DNA of 64,000 bases, taken from an uncultured Traorella sp. Lineage in GTDB: Bacteria > Bacillota_I > Bacilli_A > Erysipelotrichales > Erysipelotrichaceae. The translations under genes were made by a program, and so were the position numbers. The notes beneath the pieces are model-generated. The model saw only the letters and a list, made by a program, of their open reading frames with translations, made no database searches and had not been told where the DNA came from. Positions 48,467-64,000 of the stretch are shown here, one piece after another. The DNA lies in NCBI GenBank assembly GCA_944324265.1, contig CALUVS010000005.1, positions 1 to 64,000 on the forward strand. The letters are read 5' to 3'. Positions within the stretch are counted from its first letter, which is position 1, and each line of letters begins with the position of its first letter.

Positions 48467-48733
48467 AATAAAACACGATGAATTGAAGAGTAGTTTTGGA
48501 GTATCATGCAGAGAGCTTGTGGCGGGTGAAAACAAGCTGAGATGCCAAAATGAAGATGGTCAAGGAGTGGTACAGGCGACATGTAGTCTGTAACGGAACT
48601 GCCCGTTAGCGCAGACAAGTATCAACAGTGTACTTGATGAGGCATTATTCGTGAGAATAATGTGAAACAGGGTGGTAACACGATTCGCTCGTCCCAAACA
48701 GGACGGGCTTTTATATTTTTAGGAGGGAAGCAC
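48467..48733 (+). promoter_or_regulatory. T-box leader of metNI
   Basis: A complete T-box: GAAGAGTAG (Stem I loop-E strand), AGAGAGC (48511-48519), the apical stem GCTTGT/ACAAGC, TTTTGG/CCAAAA, then the T-box motif GGGTGGTAACACG at 48670-48682. The terminator GCTCGTCC-CAAACA-GGACGGGC with T-rich tail follows. Uncharged tRNA would pair with GGTGG-side bases and favour the antiterminator. The specifier strand reads TGAAGATGG (48551-48559); ATG at 48556-48558 fits methionine, while a GAT register would mean aspartate. The downstream genes favour methionine. Confidence 0.92.
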
Positions 48734-53261: not shown

Positions 53262-53290
53262 TTGCAAACCGTCATAAAAAGTTATAAACT
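53262..53290 (+). promoter_or_regulatory. Promoter of the aro-tyrA operon
   Basis: TTGCAA (53262-53267), a 17-base spacer, TAAACT (53285-53290). Initiation about 7 bases on would fall at the leader-peptide ATG (53297), making the transcript leaderless or nearly so. Confidence 0.65.
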
Positions 53291-53296
53291 AGGATT

Positions 53297-53338
53297 ATGA
53301 AAATAGTTAACAACGCATTCTTTTACTTTTATCGATAA
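53297..53338 (+). CDS. Aromatic-rich leader peptide of the aro operon
   Basis: A 13-codon ORF encodes MKIVNNAFFYFYR and stops at TAA (53336-53338). Five of its last six residues before the stop are Phe or Tyr (codons TTC TTT TAC TTT TAT), the end products of the pathway encoded downstream. Ribosome stalling at these codons when charged tRNA-Phe or tRNA-Tyr is scarce would alter folding of the following leader RNA. No canonical ribosome site precedes it; AGGA lies two bases upstream, and it may be translated from a leaderless start. Confidence 0.7.
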   Translation: MKIVNNAFFYFYR

Positions 53339-53419
53339 GCCCCGACAAGCCAATTCTGAATATTGGTTATTTTGTCATTGTGGGGCATAACGGCATCGGT
53401 GAGTAACGGATGCTTTTTT
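53333..53419 (+). promoter_or_regulatory. Attenuator of the aro-tyrA operon
   Basis: After the leader stop, GCCCC/GGGGC (53339-53343 with 53382-53386), GACAA/TTGTC (53344-53348 with 53372-53376) and CCAAT/ATTGG (53350-53354 with 53362-53366) form one nested hairpin. GCATC/GATGC then makes a terminator (53392-53413) with T6 to 53419, just before aroB. CGAT-AA-GCC at 53333-53341 can instead pair with GGCATCG at 53392-53398, which would block the terminator; a ribosome at the leader stop would cover that strand. The arrangement fits ribosome-mediated attenuation. Confidence 0.65.
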
Positions 53420-53440
53420 ATTTCTATGGAGGTTTGTCTT

Positions 53441-54454
53441 ATGCAGATGGAAGTGAATTTAAGTTCAAGTCACAGCAATATTTACATTGAAAGGGGGATC
53501 CTGCATCACATTCGTGAGAAGATTGATGGAAATTGTAAGGTCATGGTCATCACAGATGAAGGGGTTCCTGCTCAATACAGTGAAATTGTGTGCAGACAAT
53601 TCCCTAACAGCACGCTTTATGTCACAGTGCAGGGAGAAAAAGCCAAAAGCTTTGAAGTTTATGAAGCGATTATCCGCAAGCTTTTGGAATTGAATTTTAC
53701 CCGCAAGGATATGATTTTGGCGCTTGGCGGAGGTGTGATCGGTGATCTCAGCGGATTTGTGGCTGCCACCTTCAAAAGAGGTATGCGCTTTGCCTCCATT
53801 CCGACAACAACACTTTCGCAAATTGATTCCAGCATTGGCGGCAAGGTGGCCATCAATGTTGATGAATTGAAAAATATGGTCGGCACATTCTATCATCCGG
53901 AAGCTGTTTTCATTGACATTGATACATGTAAGACATTGTCGGCACGGCATGTGTCCAATGGCCTTGTGGAGGCTGTTAAAGCAGGATTGATTGGTGATGA
54001 AAAATTATTTGAGCTGTTTGAAACAGAAAATATCGAAGATCATCTGGAAGAAATTATTACGCATTCACTGATGGTAAAAAAGAAAGTGGTAGAAGAAGAT
54101 GAAAAAGAAACACATCTGCGCAAGATCTTGAACTTTGGTCACACTATCGGACATGCCATTGAAAGCTATTATCATCTGCATGATTATTATCATGGAGAAT
54201 GTGTGGCCATGGGAATGATGGCTGTCCTTGAAAACAAAGAACTGAAGGAGCGATTAAGACATATTTTAGAAAAAATGCAGGTGCCTGTATCTGCTCCTTA
54301 TGATCCAGAATCTCTTCTGAAGCTCATTCAGAAAGATAAAAAAGTCAGTGATGATCATATTACTCTTGTTTTAGTAGAAAAATGCGGACAAGCTGAATTA
54401 AAAGAAGTAAGCATGGATACAATACGTCAATATTTGAAAGGAGAAGCCTTATGA
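53441..54454 (+). CDS. aroB: 3-dehydroquinate synthase
   Basis: A 337-residue NAD- and metal-dependent cyclase converting DAHP to 3-dehydroquinate. It contains ALGGGVIGDLSGFVAATFKRGMRF (~residues 90-113), DSSIGGKVAIN, and the metal-ligand region RKILNFGHTIGHAIE with YHGECVAMGM. GGAGG at 53428-53432 fixes the start at 53441; the frame is open upstream through the attenuator. First structural gene of the operon. Confidence 0.95.
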   Translation: MQMEVNLSSSHSNIYIERGILHHIREKIDGNCKVMVITDEGVPAQYSEIVCRQFPNSTLYVTVQGEKAKSFEVYEAIIRKLLELNFTRKDMILALGGGVIGDLSGFVAATFKRGMRFASIPTTTLSQIDSSIGGKVAINVDELKNMVGTFYHPEAVFIDIDTCKTLSARHVSNGLVEAVKAGLIGDEKLFELFETENIEDHLEEIITHSLMVKKKVVEEDEKETHLRKILNFGHTIGHAIESYYHLHDYYHGECVAMGMMAVLENKELKERLRHILEKMQVPVSAPYDPESLLKLIQKDKKVSDDHITLVLVEKCGQAELKEVSMDTIRQYLKGEAL

Positions 54455-55533
54455 AAAGCGTCATCGGAAAAAATGTAACTCTCACTCTGTATGGAGAAAG
54501 CCACAGTGATGCGATGGGCATTGTGATTGATGGACTGGCCAGCGGCATTCCTCTTGATCTGCAGGATATTCAAGATCAATTGGAAAAGCGCAAAGCTAAA
54601 GGAAAAATTTCTACTCAGCGGCATGAAGCAGATGATTTTAAGATCACCAGCGGTTATTTCAATGGCAGAACTACCGGAACTCCTCTGCATATTCAAATTG
54701 AAAACCATGCTCAGAATTCCAAGGATTATCATCCTGAGATCCTGCGTCCCTCTCATGCAGATTATGTCGCACACATCAAATATGAAGGCTATCAGGATTA
54801 TCGCGGCGGCGGACATTTTTCAGGAAGACTGACAGCACCGATTGTGGCTGCCGGAGCTATTGCTCGTCAAATCTTAGCTAAAAAAGGGATTCTTATCGGG
54901 ACACATATTGCCCAATGCTCGCAGATCAAAGATCGTGATTTTCAAGATCTTGAACAAGATATTCATTTATGCAATCAGCTGGAATTTGCGGCATTGGATG
55001 AAAAGAAACGTCAGGAAATGATTGCCTGCATTGAACAAGCAGCTGCAGAAAAAGACAGTGTCGGCGGCATCTTAGAAACAGCCATCCTGCATTGTCCTGC
55101 CGGCATCGGCGAACCTTTCTTTCACTCCGCTGAAAGTCAGCTCAGTCAGTATTTATTTTCTATTCCTGCTGTCAAAGGCATTGAATTCGGCATGGGATTT
55201 GATTTTGTCAATCATAAAGGCAGTGAAGCTAATGATGCTTTCTGTATTGAAAATGGTGTTATCACAACCATGACCAATCATAACGGCGGTATCAACGGCG
55301 GTATTGCCAACGGCATGCCTATTCTATTCCGATGTGTGATCAAACCGACAGCTTCCATTTTCCAAAAACAGAAAACAGTCAATTATGATACAAAAGAAAA
55401 TATAGAATTTGAATTAAGCGGCCGACATGATCCAGCTATCTTCCATCGTGCAAGAGTCGTGGTTGATGCTATGACTGCCTGCTGCATCTTGGACTTATGT
55501 GCTGAAAAATACGGCACAGATTGGATGCGATAA
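54451..55533 (+). CDS. aroC: Chorismate synthase
   Basis: A 360-residue FMN-dependent enzyme converting EPSP to chorismate. It contains GESHSDAMGIVIDGL near residue 12, RGGGHFSGRLTAPIVAAGAIA (~110-130) and the C-terminal GRHDPAIFHRARVVVDAM. Its ATG overlaps the aroB TGA. Placed second, ahead of the earlier pathway steps, so the operon order does not follow the pathway. Confidence 0.95.
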   Translation: MKSVIGKNVTLTLYGESHSDAMGIVIDGLASGIPLDLQDIQDQLEKRKAKGKISTQRHEADDFKITSGYFNGRTTGTPLHIQIENHAQNSKDYHPEILRPSHADYVAHIKYEGYQDYRGGGHFSGRLTAPIVAAGAIARQILAKKGILIGTHIAQCSQIKDRDFQDLEQDIHLCNQLEFAALDEKKRQEMIACIEQAAAEKDSVGGILETAILHCPAGIGEPFFHSAESQLSQYLFSIPAVKGIEFGMGFDFVNHKGSEANDAFCIENGVITTMTNHNGGINGGIANGMPILFRCVIKPTASIFQKQKTVNYDTKENIEFELSGRHDPAIFHRARVVVDAMTACCILDLCAEKYGTDWMR

Positions 55534-55534
55534 T

Positions 55535-56782
55535 ATGAAATGCGGATTAATCGGAGAAAAATTAGGTCATAGTTTTTCAAAAGTGATTCATGAACAAATT
55601 CGTCATGAAAACTATGATTTAATTAGTTTAAGTGAAAGTGAATTTCACGAGTTTATGAAAAAGAAAGACTTTGATGCTATCAATGTCACCATTCCTTATA
55701 AGCAAAAAGTCATGCCTTACTGTGATGAAATCGATGAGATTGCTTCCAGCATCGGTGCAGTCAACTGCATCCGCAATGATGCCGGCAGACTGATTGCCAC
55801 TAATACAGATTTTGAAGGTCTGCGGCGTATGATCGTTCATCATCACATTCCGATCGAAAACAAAATTGTGGCCATCTGCGGAACCGGCGGCACCAGCAAA
55901 ACAGCCCTGGCCGTAGTGAAAAGCTTAAAGGCCAAAGTCATTTATCAGGTAGGCCGCAATAAATCGGCGCCCATCTTAAGCTATGAAGAAATGAAAGAAC
56001 ATCCGGAAATTGAGATCATTATCAATACAACAAGTGTGGGCATGTATCCCAATAATGATGATCAGATCGTAGATCTTCAATACTTCCCGAACTGCTGCGG
56101 AGTCATCGATGTGATATACAATCCTTTGACCACAGCACTATGCCGGCAAGCAGAAAAGCTCGGCATTCCTCATCTCAATGGATTGGAAATGCTGGTCGGT
56201 CAGGCTGTCAAAGCCAGTGAATTTTTCTATCAGGATCATTTGGATGAGTCTTTGATTGACTCTTTGAGTTCTTCCATGGAACATGATATGCAAAATATCG
56301 TCTTGATCGGTATGCCAAGCTGCGGAAAATCTTCTTTGGGTAAATTATTAGCCGAAGAACTCAATAAGAAATTTATTGATTTGGATGATCAGATTGTCCA
56401 AAAAGCTCAGAAATCTATTCCGGAAATCTTTCAAGAAAGCGGTGAAGAAGGATTTCGGCAATTGGAAATTGAAATTTGTGCTCAAGCTGCTTCTATGCAT
56501 GGCTGTGTTATTGCCTGCGGAGGAGGCATCATCAAAAATGAAATCAATATTGAACGCTTGAAACAAAATGGTCTAATTGTTTACATACAAAGAGATGTAC
56601 AAAAGCTTTCTGTGGATGAAAGCCGTCCCTTATCTACCAGCAGAGAAAGACTGATTGAAATGGAAAAGGAACGCCATCCGCTTTATTTGAAAGCCAGTGA
56701 CATCCAAGTGATAAATAATGATACAATTGAAAATTGTTTAATTGAAATCAAGGAGAAAGTTTATGAAAATAATGGTTATTAA
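55535..56782 (+). CDS. aroEK: Shikimate dehydrogenase - shikimate kinase fusion
   Basis: A 416-residue bifunctional protein. Residues 1-~250 are AroE: GEKLGHSFSKVIHEQI, NVTIPYKQKVM and NADPH-binding CGTGGTSKTAL. Residues ~255-416 are AroK: Walker A GMPSCGKSSLGK, FIDLDDQIVQ, ACGGGIIKN and DESRPLS. The two catalyse successive steps, dehydroshikimate to shikimate to shikimate 3-phosphate. No linker stop or internal ribosome site is evident, so this is a true fusion. The start lies one base after the aroC stop; an upstream in-frame ATG inside aroC is less likely. Confidence 0.93.
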   Translation: MKCGLIGEKLGHSFSKVIHEQIRHENYDLISLSESEFHEFMKKKDFDAINVTIPYKQKVMPYCDEIDEIASSIGAVNCIRNDAGRLIATNTDFEGLRRMIVHHHIPIENKIVAICGTGGTSKTALAVVKSLKAKVIYQVGRNKSAPILSYEEMKEHPEIEIIINTTSVGMYPNNDDQIVDLQYFPNCCGVIDVIYNPLTTALCRQAEKLGIPHLNGLEMLVGQAVKASEFFYQDHLDESLIDSLSSSMEHDMQNIVLIGMPSCGKSSLGKLLAEELNKKFIDLDDQIVQKAQKSIPEIFQESGEEGFRQLEIEICAQAASMHGCVIACGGGIIKNEINIERLKQNGLIVYIQRDVQKLSVDESRPLSTSRERLIEMEKERHPLYLKASDIQVINNDTIENCLIEIKEKVYENNGY

Positions 56783-57200
56783 TGGTCCCAATATCAATAT
56801 GCTGGGAATTCGTGAAAAAAATATATATGGCACTGAAAGCTTTGAAGCATTGATTCAATTAGTGAATGAAACTTGCCGGAAAGAAAATATTGAAGTAGAA
56901 TGTTACCAAAGCAATCATGAAGGAGATTTAGTTGATGAAATTCAATCTGCTTTGGATAAAAAAGTGAATGGCATTGTGATAAATCCAGGTGCTTATACTC
57001 ATACTTCCATTGCTTTATTGGATGCATTGAAAGCTGTGAATCTTCCTTGCGTTGAAGTACATATTTCCAAAGTAGATGAAAGAGAAGAATTCCGTCAGAT
57101 TTCTTATGTGCGATTGGCATGTTTTAAAACCATTACCGGAAAAGGAATCAAGGGATATCAAGAAGCTATTTTAGCTTTAAAAGAAAGATGTGGAGAATAG
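56763..57200 (+). CDS. aroQ: 3-dehydroquinate dehydratase, type II
   Basis: A 145-residue type II dehydroquinase with NGPNINMLGIREKNIYG (catalytic Tyr near 22), NPGAYTHTSIALLDAL and VEVHISKVDEREEFR (catalytic His near 99). It removes water from 3-dehydroquinate. The start is set by AAGGAG before 56763; the gene overlaps aroEK by 20 bases in another frame. Confidence 0.94.
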   Translation: MKIMVINGPNINMLGIREKNIYGTESFEALIQLVNETCRKENIEVECYQSNHEGDLVDEIQSALDKKVNGIVINPGAYTHTSIALLDALKAVNLPCVEVHISKVDEREEFRQISYVRLACFKTITGKGIKGYQEAILALKERCGE

Positions 57201-57203
57201 AAT

Positions 57204-58220
57204 ATGATTATTACATGTAAAAAGGGTGCCCCTCAGGCAGAAATAGATAAAATTGTTCATGATTTTGAACAAAGAGGACTAGAAGTGAATTTAATTACCG
57301 GAAAGGATTATAATGTCTTCGGTATTGTCGGAGATACGACCAATATTGATGATAAGCAAATGATGAGCAATCCATGGATTGAAAATGTCCAGCGTGTATC
57401 TGCTCCATATAAAAAGGTAAACCGTTTGTTTCACCCGCAGGATACTGTTGTTGATGTAGCGGGAATCAAAGTCGGCGGCAAAGAAAAGATTGTGGTGATC
57501 GGCGGGCCTTGTTCTGTCGAAGGATTGGAACAAATCTGTGATTTAGCTCATGATGTCAAAGAAGCCGGCGGATGTATGTTAAGAGGCGGTGCTTATAAGC
57601 CAAGAACTTCTCCGTATGCTTTCCAAGGCTTAGGAAGCAAAGGCATTGAATATTTGGTCGAAGCAAGAAGACAGACAGGTTTGCCGATTGTATCTGAAAT
57701 TATGAGCATTGACAAAATTGATGAATTTGTGGAAAATGTCGATCTGATCCAGGTTGGAGCCAGAAATATGCAGAACTTTGATTTATTAAAAGCATTGGGC
57801 AAGATCAATAAACCAATTTTATTAAAAAGAGGTTTATGCAATACCATTGAAGAATGGCTGATGAGTGCGGAATATATCATGGCCAGCGGCAATGAAAATG
57901 TCATTCTTTGTGAAAGAGGTATCCGTACTTTTGAAAAATATACACGCAATACATTGGATCTCAGTGTTGTCCAGATCGTAAAAAGAAAATCACATCTGCC
58001 GATCATCATTGACCCTTCTCATGCGACAGGTGATTGGGAATTGGTCGAATCTATGGCTTTAGCAGCTATTGCTGCTGGGGCAGATGGATTGATTGTGGAA
58101 GTACACCGCAATCCGGAATGTGCATGGAGTGATGGTCAGCAATGCTTAAAACCAGAGAAATTTAAGACAATGATAGAAAAAGGGCGAGCAATTGCCAATG
58201 TCATAGGAAGAGGAATGTAA
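57204..58220 (+). CDS. aroF: DAHP synthase, type I-beta, copy 1
   Basis: A 338-residue enzyme condensing PEP and erythrose 4-phosphate, the pathway entry. Residues 1-~70 are the ferredoxin-like/ACT-type regulatory domain (MIITCKKGAPQAEIDKIV) found on type I-beta enzymes. The barrel follows: VVIGGPCSVEG, RGGAYKPRTSPYAFQG, GARNMQNF, LKRG and IIDPSHATG. The regulatory domain normally binds Tyr or Phe for feedback. It is the first of a tandem pair with one base between them. Confidence 0.95.
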   Translation: MIITCKKGAPQAEIDKIVHDFEQRGLEVNLITGKDYNVFGIVGDTTNIDDKQMMSNPWIENVQRVSAPYKKVNRLFHPQDTVVDVAGIKVGGKEKIVVIGGPCSVEGLEQICDLAHDVKEAGGCMLRGGAYKPRTSPYAFQGLGSKGIEYLVEARRQTGLPIVSEIMSIDKIDEFVENVDLIQVGARNMQNFDLLKALGKINKPILLKRGLCNTIEEWLMSAEYIMASGNENVILCERGIRTFEKYTRNTLDLSVVQIVKRKSHLPIIIDPSHATGDWELVESMALAAIAAGADGLIVEVHRNPECAWSDGQQCLKPEKFKTMIEKGRAIANVIGRGM

Positions 58221-58221
58221 T

Positions 58222-59238
58222 ATGATCATAACCATAAAAAAAGATGCACCGGAAATAGAAGTGCAGCGTATTATTCATTCATTTGAAGAAAAAGGATTCC
58301 AAGTTAATAATTCCCAAGGATCTGATTATCATATCTTAGGATTGATTGGGGATACAACTAGTTTGGATATCAAAAATATCCAGGCTAATCCGTACATTGC
58401 GGAAGTAACTCGTATTGCCGCTCCTTATAAAAAGGCAAATCGGATGTTTCATCCGCAGGATACCGTTGTTGATGTCAATGGCATCAAGATCGGCGGACAA
58501 GAAAAAATTGTCGTCATCGGCGGTCCTTGTTCTGTCGAAGGAATGGATCAGATCTGTACCTTAGCCAAAGAAGTCAAAGACGCCGGTGCAGATATGTTAA
58601 GAGGCGGTGCTTATAAACCAAGAACTTCTCCGTATGCCTTCCAAGGCTTGGAAACTGAAGGTATTTTGGATATGGTCGAAGCAAAAAAGCAGACCGGATT
58701 GCCGATTGTCAGTGAATTGATGGATGCGGAACATATTGATGAATTTATTCAGTATGTGGATATTATTCAGATCGGTGCCCGCAACATGCAGAATTTCAGT
58801 TTATTAAAAGCTGTAGGCAAAACAAATAAGCCTGTACTGTTAAAACGAGGATTAGCCAATACGATTGAAGAATGGATCATGAGTGCAGAATATATTTTGG
58901 CCGGCGGCAATCCCAATGTTATCTTATGTGAAAGAGGGATTCGTACTTTTGAAAAATATACGCGCAATACATTGGATCTCAGCGTCATTCCAATCATCAA
59001 GGAAAGAACCCACTTACCGATCATCATTGATCCCTCTCATGCTACCGGCAACTGGAAGCTTGTGGAATCCATGTCTTTAGCTGCTATTGCTGCCGGAGCA
59101 GATGGTTTGATTATCGAAGTACACGACAATCCGGAATGTGCATGGAGTGACGGCGCTCAATCATTAAAGCCAGAGAAATTTAAGACATTGATTGAAAAGT
59201 GCCGAGGCATTGCACATGTCATCGGCAGGGAGCTGTAA
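58222..59238 (+). CDS. aroF: DAHP synthase, type I-beta, copy 2
   Basis: The same length (338 aa) and layout as copy 1. The catalytic motifs (GGPCSVEG, RGGAYKPRTSPYAFQG, IIDPSHATG) are near-identical, while the N-terminal regulatory domain (MIITIKKDAPEIEVQRIIHS) is the most divergent part. A tandem duplication, probably giving isoenzymes with different feedback effectors. Both copies look functional. Its stop is one base from the aroA start. Confidence 0.95.
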   Translation: MIITIKKDAPEIEVQRIIHSFEEKGFQVNNSQGSDYHILGLIGDTTSLDIKNIQANPYIAEVTRIAAPYKKANRMFHPQDTVVDVNGIKIGGQEKIVVIGGPCSVEGMDQICTLAKEVKDAGADMLRGGAYKPRTSPYAFQGLETEGILDMVEAKKQTGLPIVSELMDAEHIDEFIQYVDIIQIGARNMQNFSLLKAVGKTNKPVLLKRGLANTIEEWIMSAEYILAGGNPNVILCERGIRTFEKYTRNTLDLSVIPIIKERTHLPIIIDPSHATGNWKLVESMSLAAIAAGADGLIIEVHDNPECAWSDGAQSLKPEKFKTLIEKCRGIAHVIGREL

Positions 59239-59239
59239 G

Positions 59240-60502
59240 ATGAAAGCCCAAATTTCACCAAGCACACTTCACGGCACGATCAAACTTCCGCCAAGCAAAA
59301 GCATGGCGCATCGCCTGATCATCTGTGCCTCCTTGGCAAAAGGCAGAAGCACCATCAGCAACGTTGCTTACAGTGTGGATATCCAAACGACAATTGAAGG
59401 CATGAAAGCCTTAGGCGCAAAGATTCAGTGTCTGGAAGATTCTTTGATCATTGATGGCATTGAAGACTTTCACCAATGTCAAGCTTCTGTCATTGAATGC
59501 AATGAATCTGGTTCTACCCTGCGATTTCTGATTCCGCTTTTCTCTTTAACAGAAAAGAAAATCACGTTTGTCGGCAAAGGCCGATTAATGGAACGTCCGC
59601 AGAAAATCTATGAACAGATTTTTCAGGAGAAACAATTATTTTTTAAGCAGGATAGTTTAGGCATTCAGATACAAGGAGCTCTGCCAAGCGGGCATTACAC
59701 GGTACCCGGCAATGTCAGTTCACAGTTTATCAGCGGATTGTTATTTATACTGCCGTTATTAAATGAAGATTCTTATATTCATATTCAAGAACCGTTCGAA
59801 TCCAAAAGCTATATCGATCTGACTCTGCAGGCAATGAGAGATTTCCATGTGCACGCTGAATTCAGGGATGATCATACCTTATATATCAAAGGAAATCAGC
59901 ACTATCAGCCTTGCAATATGTCTGTAGAAGGTGATTTCTCTCAATTTGCCTTTTTCGGTGTCGCAGCCGCAATTAACCATGATCTGCATATTCAAGGGGT
60001 ATCCCATGATTCATTGCAGGGTGACAAGCAAATATTGGATATCTTAAAAGATTTTCAAGCTGATGTAAAAGAAACAGATGATGGCTATATGATAAGAAAA
60101 TCTGAATTAAAAGGAAATCTGATTGATTTAGCGAATTGTCCTGATCTGGGACCGATTGCCTGTGTTTTAGGCATGTTTGCACAAGGAACCACCAAGATCA
60201 TTCATGCTCAGCGTCTTCGTCTGAAGGAAAGCGATCGTATTTTAGCTATGGAAACAGAGTTGTCAAAATTTGGCTGTCAGATTCAATCTGATGAAGACAG
60301 CATCACGATCATCGGCGGCTGTCATGCCCCAAGTGTTCCTTTATCCGGCTGGAAAGATCATCGCATCGTCATGGCCCTGTCGATGGCCTGCACAGTGTTA
60401 TCCGGTACAATCGAAGGAGCAGAAGCCATTGCCAAAAGCTATCCGAATTTTTATGAGGATTGTCAGAAAATAAACATGGAGGTCACTCTATATGATGAAT
60501 AA
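59240..60502 (+). CDS. aroA: EPSP synthase (3-phosphoshikimate 1-carboxyvinyltransferase)
   Basis: A 420-residue enzyme transferring enolpyruvate from PEP to shikimate 3-phosphate. It contains LPPSKSMAHRLIICASLA near residue 14, ESGSTLRFLIPL and HAQRLRLKESDRI. GGGAG precedes the ATG at 59240; the reading frame extends back into aroF without a better start. It overlaps tyrA by 11 bases. Confidence 0.95.
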   Translation: MKAQISPSTLHGTIKLPPSKSMAHRLIICASLAKGRSTISNVAYSVDIQTTIEGMKALGAKIQCLEDSLIIDGIEDFHQCQASVIECNESGSTLRFLIPLFSLTEKKITFVGKGRLMERPQKIYEQIFQEKQLFFKQDSLGIQIQGALPSGHYTVPGNVSSQFISGLLFILPLLNEDSYIHIQEPFESKSYIDLTLQAMRDFHVHAEFRDDHTLYIKGNQHYQPCNMSVEGDFSQFAFFGVAAAINHDLHIQGVSHDSLQGDKQILDILKDFQADVKETDDGYMIRKSELKGNLIDLANCPDLGPIACVLGMFAQGTTKIIHAQRLRLKESDRILAMETELSKFGCQIQSDEDSITIIGGCHAPSVPLSGWKDHRIVMALSMACTVLSGTIEGAEAIAKSYPNFYEDCQKINMEVTLYDE

Positions 60503-61346
60503 TAAAAAATTTTTGATTGTTGGTTTAGGCTTATTGGGCGGCAGCTATGCCTTGGCCTTAAAAAAATGGCATCATGAGGTCTATGCCATTGATATTGATC
60601 CCAATGCCATTCAATATGCTCTGGATCACCAGATCATTGATGAAGGTTCCTGTGAAAATGATCCAGCACTGATTCAAAAAGCAGATGTAATCATCTCCGG
60701 TCTATATCCAAAAGATATTGTTCAATGGGTCCAAAACAACCAGCAATATTTCAAACCCAACACCTTGATCAGTGATGTCACCGGTGTCAAATGTGCCATT
60801 CTTTATGACATTCAAGCTATCTTACGAGACGACTGTGAATTTATCGGCTCTCATCCGATGGCAGGAAAAGAAGTCAGCGGTGTCCAGCATGCCGATGCAT
60901 CCATCTTCCTTCCTGCCAATCTGATCCTTACGCCTACTGATAAAAATACCCAGCAGGCCATCGATTTTATGTATGAATTCGGCAAGGAACTTCGTTTTAA
61001 CAATATCTGTATCTTAACTCCGGAAAAACATGATGAAATGATTGGTTATCTTTCACAATTGACACATGTGATTGCTGTTTCATTGATGAATGCCAACGAT
61101 AATAAGCATTTAAAAGAATACACAGGAGATAGCTTCAGAGACTTGACTCGAATTGCAAAAATCAACGAAAATCTATGGACCGAATTATTCTTGATGAATA
61201 AAGAAAACCTGATTCATGAAATAGATATTTTTATGGATGAAATGAAGTCATTTCGGGATATTCTTGAAAAAGAAGATACTCAGGCCATGAAAGAAAAGTT
61301 TATTCAATCTACCCAGCGAAGAAAATATTTTGATATTGATTCATAA
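60492..61346 (+). CDS. tyrA: Prephenate dehydrogenase
   Basis: A 284-residue NAD-dependent enzyme converting prephenate to 4-hydroxyphenylpyruvate. NAD-binding GLGLLGGSYALAL at ~10-22, SDVTGVK and GSHPMAGKEVSG, followed by a helical C-terminal domain. It lacks a C-terminal ACT domain, so direct feedback by tyrosine is less likely and control may rest on attenuation and DAHP synthase. Last gene of the operon, before a strong terminator. Confidence 0.93.
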   Translation: MMNNKKFLIVGLGLLGGSYALALKKWHHEVYAIDIDPNAIQYALDHQIIDEGSCENDPALIQKADVIISGLYPKDIVQWVQNNQQYFKPNTLISDVTGVKCAILYDIQAILRDDCEFIGSHPMAGKEVSGVQHADASIFLPANLILTPTDKNTQQAIDFMYEFGKELRFNNICILTPEKHDEMIGYLSQLTHVIAVSLMNANDNKHLKEYTGDSFRDLTRIAKINENLWTELFLMNKENLIHEIDIFMDEMKSFRDILEKEDTQAMKEKFIQSTQRRKYFDIDS

Positions 61347-63785: not shown

Positions 63786-63819
63786 AATACATTACAGCTA
63801 TAATCATAAAACACAATAG

Positions 63820-64000
63820 AGTAGAGGGAAAGTAGCTAGTATTTTCGCCCCTCTCATTGCACCGTACGTACGGGTCTCGTATACGGCGCTACATTTATAT
63901 GTTGATTTACGACTTATCTTAGATAGTACGCAAGGGGATTGACCAAACCTGGTCTTTCTCCTTTTCTTATCGCCAGCACATCGGCGCTAAGAAGAAAGTT
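63820..64000 (-). mobile_element. Group II intron, 3' portion
   Basis: Read on the minus strand, GCGCCGTATACGAGACCCG plus TACGTACGGTGC (about 63857-63890) has the look of domain V. GAGAGGGGCG...CTTTCCCTCTACTC (about 63819-63858) can fold as domain VI near the 3' splice site. The C-terminus of an intron-encoded protein lies just upstream. The body continues beyond the window. It is inserted 35-40 bases after feoB in opposite orientation. The exact boundary cannot be fixed without the other end. Confidence 0.75.
63914..64000 (-). CDS. ltrA: Group II intron reverse transcriptase/maturase, C-terminal end (partial)
   Basis: A leftward open frame enters from the right edge and stops at TAA (63916-63914). 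The visible tail reads NFLLSADVLAIRKGERPGLVNP and ends LAYYLR. It directly precedes the intron domain V-like segment, as intron-encoded proteins do. Only 28 residues are visible; the assignment rests mostly on that position. Confidence 0.6.
   Translation of the reverse strand, partial: NFLLSADVLAIRKGERPGLVNPLAYYLR

Follow-up and report, generated by a model that had tools for sequence, protein, structure and literature searches.

The region upstream of the aro operon in the window, i.e. the whole stretch of 64,000 nucleotides of uncultured Traorella sp. DNA that was analysed, is very probably a leader-peptide attenuator, which would be read by a ribosome and would respond to the charging state of tRNA-Phe and tRNA-Tyr. 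A run of Phe/Tyr codons with a coding signature lies near the stop codon of a short ORF, genes for aromatic synthesis or import follow downstream, and an intrinsic terminator is found between the two. Leaders of this kind occur in two architectures within one family, the window's class and a sister class, with about 40 leaders in each.

A sequence-only reading of the window had described a 13-residue ORF with FFYFY near its stop, followed by a nested hairpin and an intrinsic terminator upstream of aroB, and all of these are present at the locus (Table 1), the nested hairpin being enclosed by the helix GCCCC:GGGGC. The 13 codons and the stop are ATG AAA ATA GTT AAC AAC GCA TTC TTT TAC TTT TAT CGA TAA, in which a single Arg codon (CGA) separates FFYFY from the stop. 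Folding of the window's leader gave z = -2.8, and the terminator had been missed by a pattern scanner because the latter accepted loops of only 3-8. The operon that follows (53441-61346) reads aroB-aroC-aroEK-aroQ-aroF-aroF-aroA-tyrA in NCBIfam names, comprising an aroE-aroK fusion, tandem DAHP synthases and, as had been claimed, a final tyrA (prephenate dehydrogenase), with pheA (chorismate mutase-prephenate dehydratase) divergent from it. The two DAHP synthase genes (57204-58220 and 58222-59238) are adjacent, both encode 338 aa, and are possibly isoforms differing in feedback control. Elsewhere in the window, a short Rfam match to a group II catalytic intron was registered on the minus strand (63816-63891; 41.2 bits against a cut-off of 40).

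Table 1. Features of the aro leader region, in coordinates of the window
Feature	Position	Strand	Basis or remark
Predicted -35 box TTGCAA	53262..53267	+	Promoter geometry; equal spacing in genus relatives G001, G003, G004 (TTGATT) and G028 (TTGCAA)
Predicted -10 box TAAACT	53285..53290	+	17-nt spacer; 6 nt between box end and leader ATG
Leader peptide ORF, MKIVNNAFFYFYR and stop	53297..53338	+	Aromatic codons 53318-53332; stop TAA 53336-53338
GCATTC within leader ORF	53315..53320	+	Pairs with terminator 3' arm (GGATGC) in ribosome-free folds; GCATC/GCGTC kept in five relatives
Strand A, GCCCC, directly 3' of the stop codon	53339..53343	+	Ribosome-masking folds; A:D partner-swap test
Nested hairpin B:C (GACAAGCCAAT..ATTGGTTATTTTGTC), then U-rich stretch	53344..53376	+	Hairpin plus TTTT throughout the window's class
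Strand D, GGGGC, partner of A	53382..53386	+	Folding; partner-swap test
Predicted intrinsic terminator, GGCATC-11 nt-GATGC-TTTTTT	53392..53419	+	-10 kcal/mol; GGCATC 53392-53397, GATGC 53409-53413, T6 53414-53419
Shine-Dalgarno (SD) GGAGG of aroB	53428..53432	+	Sequence
aroB	53441..54454	+	ATG at 53441; first operon gene

The leader ORF is, on the evidence of its codons, a coding one, because 373 of the 375 TT/TA codons at positions -7 to -2 have T or C as third base, in a stretch of which A makes up 22%. As for its start, the window's leader ORF has no SD, and the -35/-10 geometry (TTGCAA-17 nt-TAAACT) predicts that the transcript begins with the A of this ORF's ATG, in agreement with an earlier remark on a weak ribosome site or leaderless start. 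Among leaders lacking an SD, the -10 box ends exactly 6 nt before the ATG in about 17/41, the window's included, and in nearly all leaders with an SD it lies 16-24 nt ahead of the start codon. From a -10 box 6 nt before the ATG and the missing SD, a leaderless ORF is therefore predicted for the window and for about 17 further leaders.

The conservation of the device was assessed by taking aroB from 60 relatives, 36 named records and 224 family genomes and reading the strand-corrected upstream regions, which led to a collection of 71 leaders; the named records nearest to the window are Erysipelotrichaceae and Solobacterium MAGs. Aromatic-rich short ORFs with conserved hairpins before aroB, which the sequence-only reading had proposed to look for in relatives, were found in about 70 Erysipelotrichaceae genomes, where 3-6 mostly Phe/Tyr codons are followed by usually one other codon and the stop. 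Of 93 newly fetched aroB upstream regions, 56 contain an ORF whose last 7 codons include at least 4 Phe/Tyr (dinucleotide shuffles: mean 1.4, maximum 4), and under the stricter requirement of at least 5 the count was 41 of the 93 against 0.2 in shuffles. Across 63 distinct peptides, aromatic residues occupy codons -2 to -7 in 60-94% of cases (84% at -2, 94% at -4), and Trp is absent at all ten counted positions. The N-terminal codons of the leaders drift and the aromatic codons are conserved, and equivalents of the terminator were retrieved in 69/71 leaders by an automatic search. Some relatives are without a leader; G205-G207, for example, keep the terminator and have no aromatic ORF. In these relatives of G204 (loci L070, L078 and L077 in G205, G206 and G207, respectively), the first hairpin and the aromatic ORF have seemingly been lost upstream of aroB. 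In G129 (L087), the leader ORF apparently continues past the aromatic codons, with its stop inside strand D rather than before A. Furthermore, the leader MRMNYLVSVFYFYR occurs in a record titled Faecalimonas umbilicata (L032:2840-3000), whose AroB shares 64% identity with that of the window; Faecalimonas is a Lachnospiraceae genus, and either horizontal transfer or a mislabelled record would account for this leader.

One covariance model was built per leader class. Among 295 genomes of the order, 53 matched the sister-class model, every one of them a member of the family and with a single match. The model of the window's class, run at a loose threshold, matched 45 of 226 family genomes, often with a second copy, and the weakest of these matches are untrustworthy; one weak match of R2 (G205, C4:2782) was discarded, as it sits in an apparent gene. 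Those second copies of the window's class that were read lie upstream of aroE or aroF, and copies at these two genes occur where the aro genes are split; a sister-class leader also precedes aroF in G024. The window's own genome has one leader copy. In a few genomes only, leaders precede transporter genes: MVNNHNITNISFFFFFR (G164, G165) and one ending QFYFYFS (G241) stand before PF04392 substrate-binding proteins, and weaker matches in G025 and G185 before an SBP_bac_3 protein. On these comparisons of sequence, the device is a real and widespread Phe/Tyr leader-peptide system.

The possibility that the region is a U-rich structured RNA (a riboswitch, a T-box-like element or a protein-binding leader) in which the aromatic ORF is incidental is highly improbable, since, although the leader is indeed structured, the third-base pattern, the conserved frame and stop beside variable N-terminal codons, the SD or leaderless start context, the restriction of the leaders to aromatic-pathway and transporter genes and the lack of a matching Rfam family all speak against it. 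Specifically, the T-box model RF00230 had no match at the leader site, the Rfam proteobacterial Phe, Trp and His leader families had none there up to E = 10, and a search of the site at relaxed thresholds returned nothing relevant.

The way in which a ribosome on the leader could act on the terminator was addressed with a masking test, in which the ribosome footprint is masked on the RNA and the remainder is folded at equilibrium. Among the E. coli controls, hisL and pheL were clearly recovered and trpL weakly, and a larger footprint (+17) left the picture unchanged. In the sister class, strand D has three possible partners: A, at the ORF end; C, which forms the 3' side of the first hairpin; and the loop plus 3' arm of the terminator. 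Covariation at A:D, C:D, D:E and E:F was in each case above all 500 column shuffles; that at B:C was not, 9/500 shuffles reaching its value. In G083, a member of this class, the terminator had a probability of 0.93 in the free RNA, which dropped to 0.01-0.04 for a ribosome at late aromatic codons and was 0.97 for one at the stop. In truncated transcripts of G109, G112, G101 and G111 the antiterminator fell from 13-15 paired bases at the aromatic codons to 0.2-7 at the stop. For the sister class, then, an antiterminator is predicted while the ribosome stands at the control codons, and none once it has reached the stop. Many other leaders of the class showed little equilibrium change in the test, and the modelled E. 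coli-like antiterminator/terminator switch is thus supported for the class, not for every member.

The masking profile of the window's class is the reverse of this. A ribosome standing at the first aromatic codons leaves strand A free, and A:D forms; one standing anywhere from codon -2 to the stop covers A. The helix is strongly conserved in pairing: over 41 leaders, A:D reached -14.4 kcal/mol with its own partner vs -7.5 with swapped ones, 28/41 ranking in the best 10% (p = 4.7e-19). In the window's leader the terminator is free with the ribosome at the aromatic codons (P = 0.93-0.98), and throughout the class it was predicted in every ribosome-bound state tested at these codons. No antiterminator forming at the control codons was found in the window or its class. 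Pairings D:E, D:loop, D:3'-arm, A:E and those of the middle region did not exceed swapped partners in the 41 leaders, and pseudoknots joining the U-rich stretch after B:C to the A-rich terminator base were inconsistent across the class when inspected by eye. In these folds, A:D is the only ribosome-gated element found; what is certain for the window's class is one predicted ribosome-gated hairpin and one predicted terminator. The sequence-only reading had ascribed the E. coli pheL/trpL architecture to the locus, and the masking test finds such rewiring in the sister class, not in that of the window. The antiterminator it had put forward, CGAT-AA-GCC with GGCATCG, is not supported either, as the corresponding A:E pairing fails the partner-swap test. 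The proposed pairing shares bases with the far better conserved GCCCC:GGGGC helix and is outcompeted by A:D, and close relatives do not keep it intact (CGTTAAGCC in G001, G003 and G004).

When free of the ribosome, the window's leader hardly forms the terminator at equilibrium (P = 0.02), the leader CDS pairing instead with the terminator loop and 3' arm, which is the opposite of the behaviour of E. coli leaders. Such CDS-terminator pairing in ribosome-free RNA is confined to the window's genus and a few others; it is long in that genus and in G067, with weak support class-wide (p = 0.05), and in most other leaders of the class the ribosome-free probability of the terminator is about 0.9 or more.

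Three wirings of the attenuator may be considered for the window's class. In the first, classical attenuation of the pheL/trpL type, D or the CGATAAGCC stretch would pair with the terminator 5' arm while the ribosome is stalled, e.g. at the last aromatic codon. The sister class behaves in this way in the same tests, D (GGGGCAT) can by inspection pair with ATGCTTTT of the terminator in G000, G001, G003 and G028, and the truncated fold shows upstream pairing of the terminator zone (6.2 nt) when the ribosome occupies codon -2. However, a ribosome at the first Phe and Tyr codons lets A:D form and leaves the terminator free, none of D:E, D:LF and A:E passes the swap test with either 24 or 41 leaders, and the match of D to the 3' arm is broken in G002 and G004, so that we regard classical wiring as rather doubtful. 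Strand D paired with the terminator 5' arm, loop or 3' arm was discarded as an antiterminator of the class, swapped partners being equally good.

Direct action of the A:D hairpin on RNA polymerase or on terminator folding, e.g. as an exit-channel hairpin just ahead of the terminator and with no antiterminator, would fit two facts: no other ribosome-dependent helix is conserved across the 41 leaders, and in most of these only 0-9 nt separate the end of A:D from the terminator; the stop of G129, apparently in D, would likewise keep A:D disruptable by a finishing ribosome. This wiring is also somewhat unlikely, as no known RNA of such a type was matched. A simple adjacent hairpin is not known to block intrinsic termination.

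In the third wiring, the sign of regulation would be opposite: the terminator would stay free as long as the ribosome is held at the aromatic codons, and leader or D strands would interfere with it when the ribosome has finished or is missing. For a biosynthetic operon, such a sign would have little physiological logic. The idea follows from a literal reading of the masking folds, in which the terminator zone pairs least with upstream RNA for a ribosome at the aromatic codons and more for one at the stop or, in several leaders, in ribosome-free RNA; yet the pairings that would interfere at the stop lack conservation and the ribosome-free fold loses the terminator in only 7 of about 24 aroB leaders of the window's class, which makes it distinctly unlikely.

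For the preferred reading, a ribosome-read Phe/Tyr attenuator, the following course of events is proposed. Transcription would probably start on the leader ATG, a ribosome would load on the leaderless 5' end, and RNA polymerase would probably pause after hairpin B:C. The progress of the ribosome through FFYFY before the polymerase reaches the terminator would then decide the state of strand A, free to pair with D if the ribosome is held at the aromatic codons and covered if it stands at the ORF end. In the sister class, this choice of A would set the antiterminator/terminator switch, with read-through on starvation; by analogy with that class and given the pathway, starvation should raise read-through in the window's class as well.

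The sequence-only reading had also held T-boxes to be the usual solution of low-GC Gram-positives, and this is true of the aminoacyl-tRNA synthetase genes of this genome and of the aro operons of a sister family, where three of four scanned loci have a T-box before or within the operon; Firmicute leader-peptide attenuators, however, have precedents. In the window itself the T-box it had assigned to metNI is confirmed at 48469-48699. The genome of the window has 16 T-boxes above the cut-off and two below; they precede, among others, pheS (after the weakest match), tyrS and trpS, and the genes following T-boxes, named by recognition, include serS, metG, ileS, leuS, alaS, thrS, tyrS, hisS, trpS, asnS, cysS and pheS. 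In this genome a PF04392 protein, whose family assignment was tested, follows the weak T-box match L177. The same kind of transporter has Phe/Tyr leaders at L191, L195 and L196 (in G164, G165 and G241), which suggests an exchange of sensors on it.

With the E. coli pheL-pheA system, as with hisL and trpL, the window's leader shares a short ORF rich in the regulated residues and a terminator before the first gene, the last Phe of pheL standing at codon -2; it differs in phylum and operon, in an apparently leaderless ORF, in a run of mixed Phe/Tyr and in belonging to a class without an antiterminator in the test that recovers that of E. coli. Another similar case is the uORFC-13-1 motif, a proposed Phe uORF attenuator before aroF of Acholeplasma, in which a short ORF with Phe codons and an intrinsic terminator likewise precede a gene of the shikimate pathway, again in a low-GC lineage (PMC8632094). 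That motif has an RBS and at least one Phe codon, comprises 24 sequences of Acholeplasma and aroF only, and is described with no run of 3-6 Phe/Tyr codons; it is by this description that it is set apart (PMC8632094). His leader-peptide attenuators of his operons have been predicted in Erysipelotrichales, the B. cereus group and Peptostreptococcaceae; these concern histidine and other genera (Eggerthia, Catenibacterium, Coprobacillus and others), and the accessible part of that article does not mention Phe/Tyr leaders (PMC9413887). In C. glutamicum, leader peptides have been reported at aroF (Phe-Tyr-Phe), ilvB, leuA and trpE, which offers both an aromatic leader before a DAHP synthase gene and leaderless small ORFs, the ilvB leader being without an RBS (PMC4046766). 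This likeness is one of description, in an actinobacterium with three consecutive aromatic residues only. Firmicute transcription antitermination by a leader peptide is exemplified by the Leu-rich attenuator peptide of S. aureus ilv, as cited in PMC13009471, which concerns branched-chain amino acids in another lineage and with another sequence. In the open literature, subscription journals being outside the scope of the search, no description of an Erysipelotrichaceae Phe/Tyr leader family was found. As predictions, the lineage, the regulon, the likely leaderless start and the absence of a detectable antiterminator in the window's class would be new.

That a single ribosome-gated hairpin after the leader stop controls the terminator with no antiterminator pairing, for example via RNA polymerase, seems unlikely; if true, it would constitute a new wiring of leader-peptide attenuation. 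An E. coli-like architecture and one with no visible antiterminator in the same family make it possible to ask which RNA pairing attenuators need, and leader peptides and T-boxes before pheS and tyrS in the same genomes offer two tRNA-sensing solutions that can be compared in one cell. Overall, the leaders add to a Firmicute family a predicted Phe/Tyr regulon that would be read through leader peptides.
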